Below, in pieces: positions 8,788 through 63,308 of a DNA stretch of 64,000 bases (position 1 is its first letter; each line of letters opens with the position of its first letter). The notes beneath the pieces were generated by a model that worked only from the letters and a program-made list of their open reading frames with translations, was not told the origin of the DNA and searched no databases. The DNA is taken from positions 1 through 64,000 of the forward strand of contig DZAL01000003.1 in assembly GCA_022729575.1 (NCBI GenBank). The letters are read 5' to 3'. The DNA is from Thiomargarita sp. GTDB lineage: Bacteria > Pseudomonadota > Gammaproteobacteria > Beggiatoales > Beggiatoaceae. The position numbers were made by a program, and so were the translations under genes.

Positions 8788-9999
8788 ATGAGTATGCCTA
8801 GTAAATTGAATACTTCCAATAATGACAACTGGTTTGACGACGGTGACGATGACAGTGATAATTTTCAAATTGATGAATATGATTTAACCGCTACCCCTAA
8901 CGATTTCAATGTTCAAACTATTTTCAACTGTATTGAAAATGGTGTCTTCAAAATACCGTCATTTCAGCGCAATTATGTTTGGGATATTGGCCAAGCTTCC
9001 AAACTGATCGAATCACTGATATTGGGTTTGCCGGTCCCGCAAATTTTTCTCTATGAAGCAGGTCGTAACCAGTTTTTGGTCATTGATGGACAACAGCGGC
9101 TTCTGTCAATTTACTATTTCATCAAGGAACGGTTTCCCAAAACTGACAAACGTGCGGAATTAAGACGTTTTTTTGATCAACATGGATCAGACGCTGACAA
9201 GATGCTTCCTAACTTGTTAGAAGATGACAATTACTTTACTGATTTCAGGTTGACTCTCCCAACAGATGTGCCTAAGCAGTCAAATAAATTTAATGGTCTT
9301 CAATATACGACTCTGGCCGATTACAAATTTCAATTTGACATGAGACTCTTGCGCAATGTCATTGTGAAACAGAACGCGCCGAAAGACGATGATTCAGCCG
9401 TCTATGAGATTTTCAAGCGTCTCAACACCGGTGGGATGAATCTATTGTCGCAAGAAATTCGTATCACATTGTATCCGTCCGGCTTTCAAGACATGTTAAG
9501 GAAAATCAATACATTGCCAGAATGGAGACGTGTTTTATGTCAACCTGAACCCAGTTCGCATTTGGAAGACGTGGAAGTTTTGCTTCGCAGTTTTGCCATG
9601 CTGATCGATGAGGACAATTACATCTCTCCCTTAAAAAAGTTTCTCAATCAGTTTGCCAAACAGTGTAAAGAACATGATGATGCGCAAAAAAATCAGTATC
9701 TTGAGAAATTGTTTCAAGCCTTTTTGAAAAAGTGTCAAAAATTGCCCGATTCGCTGTTCTTCAAAAATAATCGTTTCAATGTAGCGCTGTTTGAAGCGGT
9801 ATTTGTTGCGGTGTGCCGAGAACCTTTTCAAAAACGCAAGCCGCTTGATAAGAAGATTCGCCCCGTTCTCAAGGACCAGATTGAACAACTCAAGACCGAT
9901 AAAGAGTTTCTGGCCGCTTCTCAAGCGGGTGGCACCATGAGTAAGGCTAACGTCAAAACCCGTTTGGAGCGTGCCAGCCAAATTATAGATATGCTTTAA
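8788..9999 (+). CDS. DUF262 (GmrSD/ParB-like) family protein
   Basis: The product has 403 residues from ATG 8788 with AGGA at 8777-8780. After an acidic N-terminal stretch comes a DUF262 domain: I-P-S-F-Q-R-N-Y-V-W, then L-P-V-P-Q-I-F-L-Y-E, then the signature V-I-D-G-Q-Q-R-L near residue 110. The C-terminal half is helical with a conserved I-F-K-R-L-N-T-G-G motif. DUF262 is the N-terminal nucleotide-dependent domain of GmrS/GmrD restriction enzymes and of several defence genes. Here the HNH (DUF1524) half is absent. It lies 14 bp before a HEPN protein on the same strand, so the pair is probably one operon. The likely role is phage defence or a toxin-like switch; the substrate is unknown. Confidence 0.8.
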   Translation: MSMPSKLNTSNNDNWFDDGDDDSDNFQIDEYDLTATPNDFNVQTIFNCIENGVFKIPSFQRNYVWDIGQASKLIESLILGLPVPQIFLYEAGRNQFLVIDGQQRLLSIYYFIKERFPKTDKRAELRRFFDQHGSDADKMLPNLLEDDNYFTDFRLTLPTDVPKQSNKFNGLQYTTLADYKFQFDMRLLRNVIVKQNAPKDDDSAVYEIFKRLNTGGMNLLSQEIRITLYPSGFQDMLRKINTLPEWRRVLCQPEPSSHLEDVEVLLRSFAMLIDEDNYISPLKKFLNQFAKQCKEHDDAQKNQYLEKLFQAFLKKCQKLPDSLFFKNNRFNVALFEAVFVAVCREPFQKRKPLDKKIRPVLKDQIEQLKTDKEFLAASQAGGTMSKANVKTRLERASQIIDML

Positions 10000-10013
10000 G
10001 CTAGGACGTGGCT

Positions 10014-10550
10014 GTGAAGAATGATACCATTGTGGACCGTCTTTACCATGAATTTCAAGATTTAGTTTCATATCTTGACCAAAATGGCCAGATTTCCTTT
10101 TGTAATACGGCGAATGAAAATTTTTCCAAGACTTTGCTATTGGCTACAGCAAGCTATTTTGAATCACGTATAACCGAGCATCTTCTCGCCTTCGTTCGTG
10201 AAGTTGCAAAAGAGAACCAGCGAGTAGTAAAATTGGTAGAGAATAAAGCTATTCGTAGGCAATATCATACGCTTTTTAATTGGGAAGCCACCAATGCTAA
10301 TCAATTTTATGGACTGTTTGGCGAAACTTTTAAGACTTTTATGACCAATGAGATCAAACATGATATAAAACTGGAGGAGTCAGTTAAAGCCTTTCTTGAA
10401 ATTGGTCGTAACAGAAACAGTCTAGTACATCAAGACTTTGGTACGTTTTCTTTAGGAAAGACGACTGATGAAATCTATCAACTTTACCAAAAAGCACTCT
10501 ACTTTGTAGAAAGTCTGCCGGATAAACTGCGAAGTGTCTCTATTTCTTAA
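10014..10550 (+). CDS. HEPN-domain protein (RiboL-PSP/MAE_28990-like) paired with DUF262
   Basis: The start is GTG 10014, eight bases after AGGA (10003-10006); the in-frame GTG at 10008 leaves no room for that site. The product is about 178 helical residues. Near residue 134 it has the HEPN ribonuclease signature R-N-S-L-V-H (R-N-x3-H) within G-R-N-R-N-S-L-V-H-Q-D-F. The N-terminal A-T-A-S-Y-F-E-S-R-I helix also fits RiboL-PSP-type HEPN families, which are known to occur beside DUF262 genes. If active it would cut RNA in the cytoplasm, with the DUF262 partner as sensor or regulator. The family call is by motif and neighbour only. Confidence 0.7.
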   Translation: MKNDTIVDRLYHEFQDLVSYLDQNGQISFCNTANENFSKTLLLATASYFESRITEHLLAFVREVAKENQRVVKLVENKAIRRQYHTLFNWEATNANQFYGLFGETFKTFMTNEIKHDIKLEESVKAFLEIGRNRNSLVHQDFGTFSLGKTTDEIYQLYQKALYFVESLPDKLRSVSIS

Positions 10551-23603: not shown

Positions 23604-23772
23604 ATTGAAGGTTGTCAATTGCTGCTAGACCAACTCAGTCAGAATAGCAACGCTGTTCACTTTCATCATTACTTTCAAAAAGGTCGTCAAACTGCTGAGA
23701 ATTTACGAGATGATTTGCGCAACTATCTGGAAACTTTAAAAACGTTTCTCCCTCTCCGCGAGCCTGAATCTT
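23604..23772 (+). pseudogene. Fragment duplicated from the receiver-HEPN gene at 61512-62954
   Basis: The segment matches 62100-62268 over 169 bp without gaps and with about six mismatches by eye. It encodes the stretch starting I-E-G-C-Q-L-L-L-D-Q-L-S-Q-N (residues about 197-252 of that protein). It has neither the receiver part before it nor the HEPN motif after it, and no start of its own. It joins the end of a GNAT gene on one side and a reverse-strand GNAT-like pseudogene on the other. Confidence 0.85.
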
Positions 23773-48882: not shown

Positions 48883-49068
48883 GCGAGTAAGCAAGTTTAT
48901 TTTGGAAAAAATTTATAAGTATTGGAGTCCAAAACAAGTTTTGGACTCCGGAGTCTTTAATTCTCCAATTGCGTATAGCGAGTAAGCAAGTTTATTTTGG
49001 AAAAAATTTATAAGTATTGGAGTCCAAAACAAGTTTTGGACTCCGGAGTCTTTAATTTTCCAATTGCG
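48883..49068. repeat. 91-bp tandem duplication: palindrome plus 3' end of Sel1 gene
   Basis: The units 48883-48973 and 48978-49068 differ at one base. Each contains a GGAGTCCAAAACAAGTTTTG palindrome with flanks and the last codons of the large Sel1 gene (Q-L-E-N-stop). Only the second unit belongs to the gene. Confidence 0.9.
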
Positions 49069-51619
49069 CCGGCGACAACAGAGCTTTCACTCTTTCCAAA
49101 TCTGCCGCAGCCTCGTCAAAACCTTTATCCAGAGCGGATTTATAGTATTGATACGCCTTGACTAAATCTAGTGAAACCCCTTCACCTTTCTCATACATCA
49201 GACCTAAATTATATTGCGCCGCAAAGTCTCCTAAATCCGCCGCTTGTTGATACCATTTGGCTGCTTGGACTAAATCTTTAGTCACTCCTTGACCTTGGTA
49301 ATACATTAGACCTAACAAATTGAGTGCCATTACTTCATCTTTTTCAGCGCTCTCCTGTAACCATTTCAGCAGTAGCGTAAAATTTTTACTGCCCCGACCA
49401 TCACGATACATCAACCATAAATTATACTGAGCATTGCTTAATCCCTGCGCCGCGGCTTTACTGAGCCAGGATTCAGCGATTTTCTCATCTCTCGTCACCC
49501 CACGACCATAATTATACACCATGCCTAACTCAAATTGAGCTTCAGCGAATCCTTGAGCCGCCGCTTTGGCCCACCAGAAGGCCGCTGTTTTATCATTTTG
49601 ATTGACTCCGCGATTTTCTTGATATAAACGACCTAAACGATATTGTGCCAATACCTCACCTAAATCGGCCGCGGCTTGATACCATTTACTCGCCGCATAA
49701 TTATCACGTTTGATCCCTTGACCGTTTTCATACATTTCCCCTAAACGAGTTTGCGATAAGATATGTCCTTTCGCCATGGCTTGTCGGTAAGTGGCCATGG
49801 CCTGCACCCATTGATTTTTATTATAATACGCCTCGGCTTGTTTAAATAATTGGGCGGCCAGTTGTTTCTGCACTTGGTCACGCTCAATAATCGCATCCTC
49901 AAACCCTTGGGTCGCCGCTTTATTATACCAGTCATAAGCCAATTCCAAATTAAGCGGCACTCCTTCTCCAGTGCTATACATCGTCCCTAAATTATATTGT
50001 GCCATCATATCGCCCTGAGTCGCCGCTTGCCGAAACCACTTAGCGGCCTGCGCTAAATCTTTAGTCACACCTTCTCCCAGAGAATACATTAACGCTAACA
50101 CACTTTGCGCCGTGACCTCGCCTTTGGTCGCCGCTTGATTTAGCCATTCCAGCAATTGCGGAAAATTTTTACTGCCCCGACCATCATGGTACATCAACCA
50201 TAAATCAGATTGTGCGGCGACGACACCTTGGGCGGCGGCTTTCTGTAACCATTGCTCGGCGGTCTTTTCTTGGCGAGTTACTCCTTGTCCATAATTATAC
50301 ATTCTCCCCAGACTCATTTGCGCTTCGGCTAAACCCTGTTTAGCCGCTTGTTCAAATAATGCGGCGGCTTTTTTATAATTTTGATTGACTCCTCGATTGT
50401 CACGATACATCACGCCTAGATGATTTTGCGCCAACGCATTGCCACCAGCCGCCGCCCGTTGATACCATTGCACGGCTAGGGTCAACGATTGGTCCACCCC
50501 GTGTCCATTTTCATACAATTCACCTAATTTATTTTGTGCTCGTACATGACCTTTTTCCGCGGCTCTACGATAAACTCGCGCCGCCTGGGCAAAACTGCTT
50601 TGTTGCGAAAAATCGTTACCTTGTTGATAGGCGATTTCGGCTATTCTGGTGTTGACTCGATCACGGTGTATTTTCGCCGCTTCATATCCTTGGGCCAAGG
50701 CTTGAGAATACCAGTATAGGGCCAATTCCAGATTGAGAGGCACCCCTTCTCCCATTTCGTACAGTTTCGCTAACTGAAACCGGGCGGCAAAATGACCCTG
50801 CACGGCAGCTTTTTGATACCATTGACTGGCGGCCGTCAAATCTTTAGCAACGCCTTGCCCCTGATAATACAAAGTGGCCAACGCATGTTGTGCCACGGGA
50901 TTACCTAAATTGGCGGCGGTTTGTAACCAGTTGGCTAGACTGGAAAAATCGCGACGACCTTGGCCATCTTGGTACATAATCAATAATTGAGTCATCGCTT
51001 TCACGATTCCTTGCTCGGCGGCTTTGCGGAACCAATCTTCGGCTTTAGCTAGAGTCTCGTCAAGTTGAGCCGTTTGTTCAAAATAATACATCAGGCCCAA
51101 ATTAAATTGGGCTTCGGCGAAACCCTGATTCGCGGCTTGTTGAAACCAGTTTTCGGCGGTGGCCAACTCTAGCGGGACCCCTTTCTGATCACGATAGATT
51201 TCCCCTAACTGATTTTGTGCCGTAGGATCTCCAGCGGCGGCGGCTTTACCGTACCATTGGAGAGCCAGCCCCCAATCTTGAGCTACGTCTTGACCGTTTC
51301 CATATAATTGGCCTAAATGAAGTTGGGCCGGCACTAAATTTTTTAGGGCCGCTTGTTGATACCATTGCACGGCTTGAGTCATATCCAGAATAACCCCATG
51401 ACCGCTTTCATACATTTCACCCAGGCGCATTTGCGCTTGGGCATGACCCTGAGTGGCCGCTTTTTGATAAAATTCAACGGCCTGTCCAAAATTGCCTTTG
51501 ACGTATAATTCTTCACCTTTTTTAAAAGTAGTCTCCGCGTTTTGGCAACAAGCAGTGAGCCAAACGGTAATAATACTGGTGAGTATTAGGAGAAAAAATT
51601 TATTCATTGTCGATTTCAT
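49052..51619 (-). CDS. Large Sel1-repeat lipoprotein
   Basis: The product is 855 residues. A signal peptide ends in the lipobox L-T-A-C; a nearer in-frame ATG at 51607 would also give this signal. The rest is about twenty Sel1-like repeats of 36 residues (A-x-x-W-Y-Q-K-A-A-x-x-G and L-G-x-M-Y-x-x-G-x-G-V). A thrice-repeated larger block starts with A-x-x-Y-R-R/Q-A-x-x-K-G-H and includes D-G-R-G-S-K-N-F, so the gene grew by internal duplication. It probably acts as an envelope scaffold. Its 3' end is duplicated just outside the gene. Confidence 0.88.
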   Translation of the reverse strand: MKSTMNKFFLLILTSIITVWLTACCQNAETTFKKGEELYVKGNFGQAVEFYQKAATQGHAQAQMRLGEMYESGHGVILDMTQAVQWYQQAALKNLVPAQLHLGQLYGNGQDVAQDWGLALQWYGKAAAAGDPTAQNQLGEIYRDQKGVPLELATAENWFQQAANQGFAEAQFNLGLMYYFEQTAQLDETLAKAEDWFRKAAEQGIVKAMTQLLIMYQDGQGRRDFSSLANWLQTAANLGNPVAQHALATLYYQGQGVAKDLTAASQWYQKAAVQGHFAARFQLAKLYEMGEGVPLNLELALYWYSQALAQGYEAAKIHRDRVNTRIAEIAYQQGNDFSQQSSFAQAARVYRRAAEKGHVRAQNKLGELYENGHGVDQSLTLAVQWYQRAAAGGNALAQNHLGVMYRDNRGVNQNYKKAAALFEQAAKQGLAEAQMSLGRMYNYGQGVTRQEKTAEQWLQKAAAQGVVAAQSDLWLMYHDGRGSKNFPQLLEWLNQAATKGEVTAQSVLALMYSLGEGVTKDLAQAAKWFRQAATQGDMMAQYNLGTMYSTGEGVPLNLELAYDWYNKAATQGFEDAIIERDQVQKQLAAQLFKQAEAYYNKNQWVQAMATYRQAMAKGHILSQTRLGEMYENGQGIKRDNYAASKWYQAAADLGEVLAQYRLGRLYQENRGVNQNDKTAAFWWAKAAAQGFAEAQFELGMVYNYGRGVTRDEKIAESWLSKAAAQGLSNAQYNLWLMYRDGRGSKNFTLLLKWLQESAEKDEVMALNLLGLMYYQGQGVTKDLVQAAKWYQQAADLGDFAAQYNLGLMYEKGEGVSLDLVKAYQYYKSALDKGFDEAAADLERVKALLSPAQLEN

Positions 51620-59914: not shown

Positions 59915-60144
59915 TGGATGGTGGGTAGTGGATAGCGGGATAAAAAACGCTTTGACTTTTTTCGAAACTCGAGGATGATAAAGACCTATCTGATTAACTT
60001 CAAGGAAAACTACAATAGCCTCCGATGCCGGACCAGAGGCTTTAGCCGGTTTGACACTCCGATACCGAAACTTTTATAATAACCAAAACATTCAACCTTT
60101 AGTTTGAATTACCCTAAACTATATTTTTTAAAACTGTTCAAATT

Positions 60145-61515
60145 ATGAAAACAACCTCTGTAAAAGTACCAAAATCAACCACTAAACCCTTGGCAAAAGA
60201 GTTAAAACGTGCGTTATCTACTGTGCAAGAGACACCCATCCTTGCTTCTCAGAATTTCAATCAGGTGCCCTTGTTAAAAATCGAGGACGATTCGATGCCG
60301 GACCAGAGGACGATAGCACAATGGCATGAATGGGCAAAAAGGGGAGATGCTGAAGCACAATATAATTTAGGAGTAACTTATCTCGAGGGTAAAGATACTC
60401 CACAAAATTATGAAGAAGCAATCAAATGGTTTAATGAAGCCGCGAAACAAGGGTCAGAGCTTGCTAAATTTAATCTGGCAAATGCTTACCGCAAAGGTAC
60501 AGGGGTTCCACAAAATGACAAACTCGCTTTAGAATTATTTGAAGAGATTTTGACAAGCCAGAGTTCTATTGAAGAAACTAACCGGTTCAGCATTCCGTTT
60601 AACCCTGATGCCTCTTTGGTATGGATGACTCGTGAAGCCATCCAAGCCATTAAATTGAAAGCCGCTAACCGTACCCTAGAAGACATCCTCAGCATGGTGG
60701 CACATGAATTTGGTGGTCCTTTGGATAGTTTGGAGTATAATATTACTTCCCAAAACGACCCGCAACGGGCTTTAAGATTCATCAAAATCATGCACGGGCT
60801 CCGGCAAACTTTTGGCGTGGTTTCTATGGATGCGGCTGAACTTCGGCGGCAAATGCAACAAGATAAGCAAGGGGAAGGGACCTTATTGACGCTATTGGAA
60901 CAATCGCTAGAGTTTAGCTTTTCATCATTGCTGACTCCTCAAAGTTTTGGTAGAATCAGTCAGCATTACTTTGCCTACGCTAAAAAGCACCATCTATTTA
61001 CTTTGGAACGCAGAGACTGGGAAAAAAATCATCTGGATGGCCAACTGCTTGATCTCAAGAAAAGATTGCAGAACGAATGGCAAAAGAGTTTTCATGCGAT
61101 AGCGGACCAGGGTAAGATGGACCTCCTATTAAAGTGGATTGAGGAACATTTTTTCCACCTAGACTTACAAGGTTTCCAACCTGAACAGATTCGCTTCAAA
61201 AACTATGGCATCACAGAATCGGTACTCACAATTATTTTCACCGAAATTTTGTCCAATGCCATTAAATACTACGAAGTCTCTTGCCCCCAGCCGGTATTGC
61301 TACACTGGCAATGCGACCAAACTGGCGGGAGGTTGACTTGTCAAAATCCGACTTCTCGTTTAGAATGTTACGATAAGGGCAGTAAAAAGGGGCACGATTT
61401 TTTGAATTTGATTGCCACCAATATGAATGGAGAGTTTACAACCACTCTCAGCCAAGACCAGTATATTACTACTTTTATTATTCCCACTGAGTTATTAATG
61501 GAGGAAACATTATGA
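60145..61515 (+). CDS. Sel1-repeat histidine kinase-like protein of a two-gene system
   Basis: The 456-residue product has no membrane segment. Residues about 58-138 hold two Sel1 repeats (A-Q-Y-N-L-G-V-T-Y-L-E-G and A-K-F-N-L-A-N-A-Y-R-K-G-T-G). A HisKA-like helix carries His187 in V-A-H-E-F-G-G-P-L. A helical insert is followed by an HATPase-like end with the N box E-I-L-S-N371-A-I-K and G2-like K-K-G-H-D-F-L. A clear D-x-G-x-G (G1) box is not seen, so ATP binding may be atypical. Its stop overlaps the next start as ATGA, so the receiver-HEPN protein is its obvious partner. Signal sensing through the Sel1 repeats is inferred. Confidence 0.75.
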   Translation: MKTTSVKVPKSTTKPLAKELKRALSTVQETPILASQNFNQVPLLKIEDDSMPDQRTIAQWHEWAKRGDAEAQYNLGVTYLEGKDTPQNYEEAIKWFNEAAKQGSELAKFNLANAYRKGTGVPQNDKLALELFEEILTSQSSIEETNRFSIPFNPDASLVWMTREAIQAIKLKAANRTLEDILSMVAHEFGGPLDSLEYNITSQNDPQRALRFIKIMHGLRQTFGVVSMDAAELRRQMQQDKQGEGTLLTLLEQSLEFSFSSLLTPQSFGRISQHYFAYAKKHHLFTLERRDWEKNHLDGQLLDLKKRLQNEWQKSFHAIADQGKMDLLLKWIEEHFFHLDLQGFQPEQIRFKNYGITESVLTIIFTEILSNAIKYYEVSCPQPVLLHWQCDQTGGRLTCQNPTSRLECYDKGSKKGHDFLNLIATNMNGEFTTTLSQDQYITTFIIPTELLMEETL

Positions 61516-62954
61516 GTTATTTTCTCTGGGTTGAAGATTTTCAAACGACTTCTGGTCGTACAGAGGTTGCCAGTACGATTAAAAATGTTTTTGGTGAAGT
61601 CCTTGACCAGGATGCTTTGCCACCAACCATGGCGGAAGAAGTTGCCCATTTTTTTCAGCAACAACAGTGTGGTGTGTTTGTAGAGCGCACTTTTTTTGAC
61701 GCATTGCAATTTCTCTACACTCCTGAGAAATTGCTGAAAGCCGATTACATTGTCTTGGATATTGATTTACCATTGGCAAGCTATCCTAACACCAACCATC
61801 CCGTTTACACGAACTATTCGGAAATTCTGCAAAGATACCCAAGTGAGGCAGAATTTAAAAAAGTGGCCGGCTATCAACTGTATGTCGAATTGGTGATGAA
61901 CTTGGGTTTTCCCAAAGAACATATTTTGTTTTGTTCTAACCATGAACAGTATTTGGCAAGCATCAAGACGGCTTTTCAAGAGGCTAAAATCAGCTTGCCT
62001 AAGCCTGTGCCCTCTAAACATGAAAGCGACCGTGACATCATCCGGCAATGGATTCGGGAACATCGAAATAACCGTTATGTCACGTTGCGGCGCGGCATTA
62101 TTGAAGGTTGTCAATTGCTGCTAGACCAACTCAGTCAGAATAGCAACGCTATTCACTTTCATCATTACTTTCAAAAAGGTCGTCAAACTGCTGAGGAGTT
62201 ACGAGATGATTTACGCAACTATCTGGAAACTCTCAAAACGTTTCTCCCTCTCCGCGAGCCTGAATCTTCTGCTAATAAACCTATGCTGTTCAAGTTATTC
62301 GCTAGAACATTGGCACATGAGTGGGAAACTTCGGCCAATCCTAGTCAGTATCAGGGTCCCAATTCAACCTTTTATCAAGCACTCGGCTGGATTATGAAAT
62401 CTACCCGCAACTGGCTGAGTCACTCCCAAATTTTAGACGGCTTGCAAGAGGAAGAGGTGGCTTTTCTCTTTCTAGCAGCCATGCGGGCGATGTTCAACTT
62501 GGGGAATCAACCTGAAACGTATGAAAAAATTTTATTCCGACTCTTCCAAGCTACCGCTACTACCGAATTACAGCAACATATCAAAGATAATTTGGTAGAT
62601 AGTTATGTCATGGTCAAGGAACATTTACTGAATGCGGTGGTCAAAGTCGAAGATGCCATTCCTTTCAACAAAATGCTTGACAATATGCAAAGTAAAAACG
62701 TGTCTCTGCCGGGGAATTACAGTTATTTGACGGGTCTATTTCAAATGTTTTGGCATGGACTCTCACCGGCCAGTTTACACAAAATTACCCCCAAACCACC
62801 TGTTACCAAGACCGTCAAACATACCGTCACTTTTGAAATGAACTGTACTTTTGGCAACCAGGATTTTGGTGCTTCACAGCCAAACGATTTTCTATTCCAA
62901 TTCGCTCGTCACATTTATCAGAGAAGTTTTTCGTGTGTCCCATGCACCACTTAG
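61512..62954 (+). CDS. Receiver-like protein with C-terminal HEPN-type motif
   Basis: The product has 480 residues and is coupled by ATGA to the upstream kinase. Residues 1-150 resemble a receiver: acidic E8-D9 after Y-F-L-W-V, and a phospho-acceptor candidate D83 in I-V-L-D-I-D-L-P. An insert lies between strands, and H-I-L-F-C-S-N-H follows. The C-terminal half is helical and carries R299-N-W-L-S-H304 in M-K-S-T-R-N-W-L-S-H, the R-N-x3-H signature of HEPN ribonucleases. A kinase-controlled RNase is therefore plausible. The last about eight residues (S-C-V-P-C-T-T) come from a repeat, so the true end may be lost. A 169-bp piece of a paralogue lies at 23604-23772. Confidence 0.7.
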   Translation: MSYFLWVEDFQTTSGRTEVASTIKNVFGEVLDQDALPPTMAEEVAHFFQQQQCGVFVERTFFDALQFLYTPEKLLKADYIVLDIDLPLASYPNTNHPVYTNYSEILQRYPSEAEFKKVAGYQLYVELVMNLGFPKEHILFCSNHEQYLASIKTAFQEAKISLPKPVPSKHESDRDIIRQWIREHRNNRYVTLRRGIIEGCQLLLDQLSQNSNAIHFHHYFQKGRQTAEELRDDLRNYLETLKTFLPLREPESSANKPMLFKLFARTLAHEWETSANPSQYQGPNSTFYQALGWIMKSTRNWLSHSQILDGLQEEEVAFLFLAAMRAMFNLGNQPETYEKILFRLFQATATTELQQHIKDNLVDSYVMVKEHLLNAVVKVEDAIPFNKMLDNMQSKNVSLPGNYSYLTGLFQMFWHGLSPASLHKITPKPPVTKTVKHTVTFEMNCTFGNQDFGASQPNDFLFQFARHIYQRSFSCVPCTT

Positions 62955-63103: not shown

Positions 63104-63260
63104 TGATACTCCCTACTAGCCAATGGAGATATTAACTGCCGGTGGCTAAGAGTTCTAAACCTGGCAGATGCTAAGTTTCCTAAGCCTTCCAGGCTTAGGA
63201 AACTTTGAACCTTGGTCACTCATTGAAGGTTAAGACTTCCATTAATTTGGCGGGACTACC
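63104..63260. mobile_element. MITE-like element, family 1, copy E (diverged)
   Basis: The ends TGATACTCCCTACTAGCCAATGGAGATATTAA and TTAAGACTTCCATTAATTTGGCGGGACTACC match copies B and C with many changes. The interior has a TTTCCTAAGCC..GGCTTAGGAAA palindrome. Confidence 0.65.
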
Positions 63261-63308
63261 CAATATTATTACTTAAACCATTTACTAAATTATTTCAACC
63301 ATTTAACC

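Follow-up and report, generated by a model that had tools for sequence, protein, structure and literature searches.

The locus at positions 60145-62954 of the window, by which we mean the whole 64,000-nucleotide stretch of Thiomargarita DNA that was analyzed, carries two intact, co-directional genes. The first (60145-61515, + strand) encodes a sensor histidine kinase of 456 aa, and the second (61512-62954, + strand) encodes a protein of 480 aa in which a receiver domain is followed by a probable HEPN domain; it is referred to below as the receiver-HEPN protein. The kinase gene comes first, and the two reading frames overlap by the sequence ATGA, exactly where the original prediction had placed them. 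All of the residues singled out in that prediction are also present: H187 (within VAHEFGGPL) and N371 in the kinase, and E8-D9, D83 and RNWLSH at 299-304 in the partner. The features of the locus, together with a partial copy of the second gene elsewhere in the window, are as follows.

60051..60080, + strand: promoter-like site with a perfect sigma-70 consensus (TTGACA-18-TATAAT), located 65 bp 5' of the kinase start codon; a consensus match only
60145..61515, + strand: sensor histidine kinase, 456 aa, with Sel1 repeats followed by a DHp domain and an ATP-binding domain
60349..60564, + strand: Sel1/TPR-like repeat region, putative sensor, about residues 69-140 (Pfam Sel1 E 7.5e-19; VIA-align Z 12-14 to Sel1 proteins)
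60703..60705, + strand: H187, predicted phospho-accepting histidine (H in 42/42 aligned upstream partners)
61255..61266, + strand: N371-x-x-K374, the N-box in the ATP-binding domain (both residues kept in 42/42)
61512..62954, + strand: receiver-HEPN protein, 480 aa
61512..62021, + strand: receiver domain, about residues 1-170, with E8, D9, D83, S142 and K169 (VIA-align Z 9-10.8 to CheY-like receivers)
61758..61760, + strand: D83, predicted phospho-accepting aspartate (D in 51/52)
62067..62546, + strand: probable HEPN domain, all helical, about residues 186-345 (AF2 helices 188-209, 227-242, 255-270, 285-304 and 313-327)
62406..62423, + strand: RNWLSH, residues 299-304, an Rx4H motif of HEPN type located where helix 285-304 ends
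62547..62951, + strand: less conserved C-terminal region, residues 346-480
23604..23772, + strand: 169-bp copy of 62100-62268 (receiver-HEPN residues 197-252) at 96% identity; a fragment rather than a gene

The repeats reported near the pair do exist, as dispersed short palindromes (about 63157-63261) and as the 169-bp gene piece, which has only two copies in the genome. The gene at 63 kb, by contrast with its earlier reading as a sign of a plastic locus, encodes an ABC-transporter permease (PF00528) and provides no evidence of plasticity. The 169-bp copy lies behind an acetyltransferase-like gene, in a part of the window where repeats are abundant.

Homologues were gathered by a scan of genome contigs combined with whole-genome searches, and 52 receiver-HEPN proteins and 42 upstream kinases were aligned. 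They were found in Beggiatoa-type sulphur bacteria, Methylococcales, Bathymodiolus symbionts and one Pseudanabaena assembly, with a concentration in large filamentous sulphur bacteria and methanotrophs, and the two-gene unit of the window recurs at most of the other loci. Their spread is patchy (8/40 relatives, 4/369 Gammaproteobacteria genomes and 35/151 genomes of one methanotroph family), some genomes carry several copies of the pair, and one copy resides on a Methylomonas plasmid. Phage records and viral contigs yielded no copy.

The description of the first gene product as a kinase-like protein with Sel1 repeats was borne out by the significant Pfam match of the repeats, and its predicted structure matches histidine kinases both in Foldseek (E ~1e-4) and in VIA-align, where YycG/WalK was aligned over 194 residues with a Z of 13.5. 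What is expected on the kinase side of a two-component system, namely a phospho-acceptor histidine and an ATP-binding domain with N-box and G-box, is present in the protein, and H187, E367, N371, K374, N401 and G416 are invariant in the alignment of 42 upstream partner kinases. The sensor parts vary widely across these kinases: they contain from 2 to ~17 Sel1 repeats, contain TPRs instead, or are free of repeats. In two of them, one from an uncultured Methylomonas (L035, 5578-8004) and one from Pseudanabaena (L050, 5648-7993), the N-terminus consists of an N6-methyltransferase and a type I specificity domain. The motif IV position of the methyltransferase-like part reads GEPPF and GSLPF in these two proteins instead of the usual NPPF, which suggests a DNA-recognizing sensor that lacks a working methyltransferase. 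Sel1 proteins are numerous in the source genome as a whole, and the window itself holds another, an 855-aa protein with 17 Sel1-repeat stretches at 49052-51619.

The receiver-HEPN protein has no Pfam match of its own, the receiver domain and the partner kinase both being too divergent for Pfam thresholds. Its AlphaFold model (mean pLDDT 86.8, pTM 0.89) shows a receiver fold followed by an all-helical middle, and the receiver domain was aligned with ComE over 129 residues at a VIA-align Z of 10.8. The acidic pair, phospho-acceptor aspartate, serine/threonine and lysine of a two-component receiver are all in place. They are near-invariant among the 52 homologues, with E8 kept in 52, D9 in 50, D83 in 51, S/T142 in 52 and K169 in 51; the last two are pocket residues that the original prediction had not listed. 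The earlier assignment of this part as receiver-like, made from E8-D9 and D83, is supported by both fold and pocket.

Identification of the helical middle is a subtler matter, and here conservation carries most of the weight. HEPN RNases are characterized by an Rx4-6H motif in which N, D or H follows the arginine, and the motif has been placed at the end of a helix (Anantharaman et al., PMC3710099). The motif of the window protein has this form, and in the AF2 model, read at the level of secondary structure, it occupies the described position: helix 285-304 ends at H304 and is followed by a loop and then by helix 313-327, in a block with pLDDT of ~87-97. At least one R[NDH]xxxH occurs in 8.6% of composition-shuffled copies of the protein, so the motif alone is weak, and it is its conservation rather than its occurrence that exceeds chance. 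Conservation of R299, N300 and H304, on which the HEPN proposal had been made to depend, proved to be high. Among the 52 homologues R299 is kept in 50 (K in two orphans), 49 have N and 2 have H at position 300, and H304 is present in all 52; wherever the arginine is kept, N or H always comes next and H304 is intact. The three positions remain near-invariant even though identity over the HEPN half drops to ~24%. W301, directly beside R-N, is conserved in 52/52 and was noted, like Y189 and R193, as a possible structural residue.

Direct searches with the HEPN half gave no significant match to Pfam, NCBIfam or solved structures, and a sequence search of solved structures returned nothing. Comparison by hhalign with alignments of the RiboL-PSP, DUF4145 and Swt1-like HEPN families likewise produced no significant score. 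As a control, true HEPN families were compared with each other: RiboL-PSP reached a probability of 0.2% with DUF4145 and 22.6% with Swt1. Since known HEPN families fail or nearly fail to find each other, the null profile comparison is uninformative. Though not significant, the top-scoring local alignments with the RiboL-PSP and Swt1 HEPN profiles superimpose motif on motif, and for a divergent member (L152) the second-best Pfam match is a weak one (E 0.36) to Swt1-like HEPN over the helix and motif. With the whole 480-aa model, VIA-align recovered almost only receivers, Foldseek found nothing significant (a Csm6 chain at E 0.18 was not taken as evidence), and Foldseek against viral structures found nothing significant either. 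A distant paralogous pair in the same genome (contig C160, L111 6648-9169) has the receiver-HEPN motif LRNWIAHG, which is the common HEPN form; its kinase lacks Sel1 repeats, overlaps the receiver-HEPN gene and lies among PDH and mnmA genes. On this evidence we consider it likely that the helical middle is a HEPN domain.

To relate the three parts of the system, pairwise identities were compared over 861 locus pairs. Kinase identity correlates closely with receiver identity (r = 0.91) and much less with HEPN identity (r = 0.44), correlations that are descriptive because the pairs are non-independent, sharing ancestry and in some cases coming as several copies from one genome. The extremes are telling. 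There are 31 pairs whose HEPN halves reach 60% identity or more with receiver identity of no more than 35%, and the kinases of these pairs are only 15-21% identical; between L160 and L164, for example, the HEPN half is 82% identical and the receiver 25%. The reverse case is seen between L156 and L158, whose receivers are 98% and kinases 89% identical, against 45% for the HEPN half. Single extreme pairs such as these require recombination near residue 170-186. Because kinase similarity tracks the receiver and not the HEPN half, kinase and receiver appear to travel as a matched input with the HEPN half as output, and such a pattern of exchange is what one would expect of a cognate phosphorelay whose output is separable. 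Two orphans from Thioploca (L025 and L055), which have no kinase neighbor, show D9 changed to S, R299 changed to K and a truncated C-terminus, indicating that input and output decay together.

Taken together, the gene pair probably represents a sensor kinase and a partner that unites a phosphate-receiving switch with an RNA-cutting domain. We favor, with reasonable but limited confidence, a two-gene phospho-signaling module in which the kinase acts through D83 and the receiver switches RNA cleavage by HEPN. This proposal draws on the pairing of the genes, the predicted kinase and receiver folds, the conservation of every catalytic position, and the joint inheritance of kinase and receiver, with the HEPN half exchanged independently of them. 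In the model, the solenoid-repeat histidine kinase would sense a signal and autophosphorylate on H187, and the phosphate would pass from H187 to D83 in the receiver domain of the partner. The phosphorylated receiver would then switch the probable HEPN domain of the same protein, presumably turning it on, and that domain would cleave RNA via R299/N300/H304, probably as a dimer. Growth arrest or a changed cell state may be the outcome.

The surroundings of the pair bear on what such a module might be for. Most homologues adjoin housekeeping genes, for example glmS, pyk, eno/kdsA, mnmA/PDH and ATP synthase genes, and the neighbors in the window are surA, a TonB-dependent receptor gene and the ABC permease gene. 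PADLOC profiles match neither window protein, and on 131 neighbor proteins they gave only isolated defense matches, a raw tally without a baseline that lists families, not proteins. Of the original reading, the coupling of a kinase/receiver pair to a probable HEPN RNase domain is supported; the mostly housekeeping neighbors count against its placement in defense. Two loci have neighbors of another kind. The divergent pair L054 (Ca. Parabeggiatoa) is directly preceded on the same strand by genes for a type III-D Cas7/Csm3-like protein, a Csx1 CARF-HEPN protein and then a YhgA-like transposase (L054 493-9347), and a type IIG restriction-modification gene lies directly 3' of the L032 pair.

In Methylococcales the pair has additional regular neighbors. 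A Nudix-domain protein of ~560 aa is encoded 3' of the pair in 27/31 loci (e.g. L040 10276-11979, L044 10441-12144 and L152 1947-3611), with its gene overlapping the receiver-HEPN gene in L152, and PIN-like genes (VapC-type, judged by eye) often lie between the pair and the Nudix gene. A protein of ~190 aa without a Pfam match is encoded 5' of the kinase in 17/31 loci (e.g. L040 5516-6097, L044 4880-5443 and L130 9608-10171). At 20 further loci, most of them in sulphur bacteria, neither protein was found, and the two may be accessory parts in Methylococcales. The Nudix protein was considered as a third component and rejected; it is absent from the genome of the window, and in sulphur bacteria that have both, it lies on other contigs. 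A known type of defense pair occurs in the window at 8788-10550, 50 kb from the locus; it consists of a GmrSD_N (DUF262) protein (PADLOC NsnA E 4e-58, PD-T4-2_A 4e-41) and, after it, a HEPN protein of the RiboL-PSP type (Pfam 74.8 bits).

Use of the module in defense against phages or other invaders is plausible, and we regard the case as evenly balanced. The methyltransferase/specificity sensors, the CRISPR III and type IIG neighbors, the plasmid copy and the patchy multi-copy spread plausibly support it. The system could, more tentatively, exemplify a class of immune module in which a swappable kinase sensor (Sel1, TPR, or an N6-methyltransferase/specificity pair without the normal catalytic motif) controls a HEPN RNase through direct phosphorylation of an aspartate, with the kinase-receiver cassette exchanged over a constant RNase. 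The same phosphorelay and RNase might instead form a stress or dormancy regulator, the kinase sensing metabolic or envelope stress and HEPN trimming cellular RNA. The housekeeping surroundings, the few defense matches among the 131 neighbors and the concentration in large filamentous sulphur bacteria and methanotrophs fit such a role, which we nevertheless judge somewhat unlikely given the scattered occurrence (4/369, 35/151) in multiple copies, the plasmid-borne copy, the CRISPR III and type IIG neighbors, and the swapped sensors that include methyltransferase/specificity domains.

Other alternatives concern the output itself. Were the helical half not an RNase, it could be a HEPN-like or unrelated output, for instance for protein binding or dimerization, with R-N-W-x-x-H serving structure. 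The lack of a significant HEPN match by profile or fold is consistent with this, as are the invariant W301 and Y189/R193; however, the persistence of R/N/H in 52 proteins that diverge so far, the restriction of position 300 to N or H whenever R is retained, the position of the motif at a helix end and its superposition on those of RiboL-PSP and Swt1 HEPN make this reading unlikely. A polarity like that of toxin-antitoxin systems, in which HEPN is active by default and kinase-driven phosphorylation of the receiver keeps it off, is less probable still. It would suit a kinase gene that comes first and overlaps its partner, and the two kinase-less loci, truncated and with R299 changed to K, look as if an unguarded toxin had been disarmed. 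The same decay is expected, however, of a protein that merely lost its use along with its kinase, and the catalytic residues and receiver pocket kept nearly everywhere else fit either sign. Finally, the pair might belong to Detocs proper and have an effector that has diverged. In Detocs, DtcA is the kinase, DtcB the receiver and DtcC a receiver-PNP ATP nucleosidase. The plan of a TPR-like-repeat kinase and a receiver-fused effector is shared, but Detocs is a three-gene family whose PNP effector degrades ATP (PMC11249213), whereas here there are two genes, no stand-alone receiver and no PADLOC match; the receiver-HEPN protein gave no PNP match, its middle domain being all helical. With two defining features missing, gene number with a separate receiver and the PNP effector, membership was rejected and is in our view highly improbable.

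If the phosphorelay-RNase module is correct, RNA cleavage joins the outputs driven directly by a His-Asp phosphorelay in one protein, and Detocs gains a counterpart with an RNase output. The natural swaps of kinase and receiver over a constant HEPN half make phospho-coupling testable with natural chimeras, and the kinases fused to methyltransferase/specificity domains suggest that a phosphorelay may receive its input from DNA recognition.

No description of an architecture combining HEPN with a receiver or response regulator was found in the open literature searched, a scope outside which lies the original Detocs publication, possibly mentioning a HEPN variant. The nearest systems each share part of the design. 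HEPN RNases such as RiboL-PSP, Swt1-like, DUF4145 and Csx1/Csm6 likewise have an all-helical domain and carry the R-[N/D/H]-x3-H motif where one of its helices ends (PMC3710099), but they are tied to nucleotide second messengers, MNT antitoxins or NTPases rather than to a His-Asp phosphorelay, and the domain described here differs in its conserved W after R-N and in lacking a significant profile match to them. Classical response regulators such as PorX (receiver-PglZ) resemble the pair in having a cognate kinase, an intact phospho-acceptor pocket and a receiver fused to an enzymatic output; here that output is a probable RNase, and kinase and receiver lie beyond Pfam thresholds. Cam2, a REC-domain effector encoded near type III CRISPR and a putative defense effector (PMC11229360), also fuses a receiver domain to such an effector, but it lacks a kinase and its presumed ligand is a cyclic nucleotide, whereas the present protein has a coupled kinase gene and intact phosphorylation residues. 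A figure legend in the DefensePredictor paper (PMC13092281) names predicted systems whose domains include TPR, HATPase and REC, one of which may overlap this family. The closest parallel is Detocs, in which a TPR-like-repeat histidine kinase likewise acts on a receiver fused to an effector within one operon. Despite the different gene number, the probable HEPN RNase in place of a nucleosidase and no detected profile similarity, the pair probably works like a two-gene analogue of Detocs with an RNase output.
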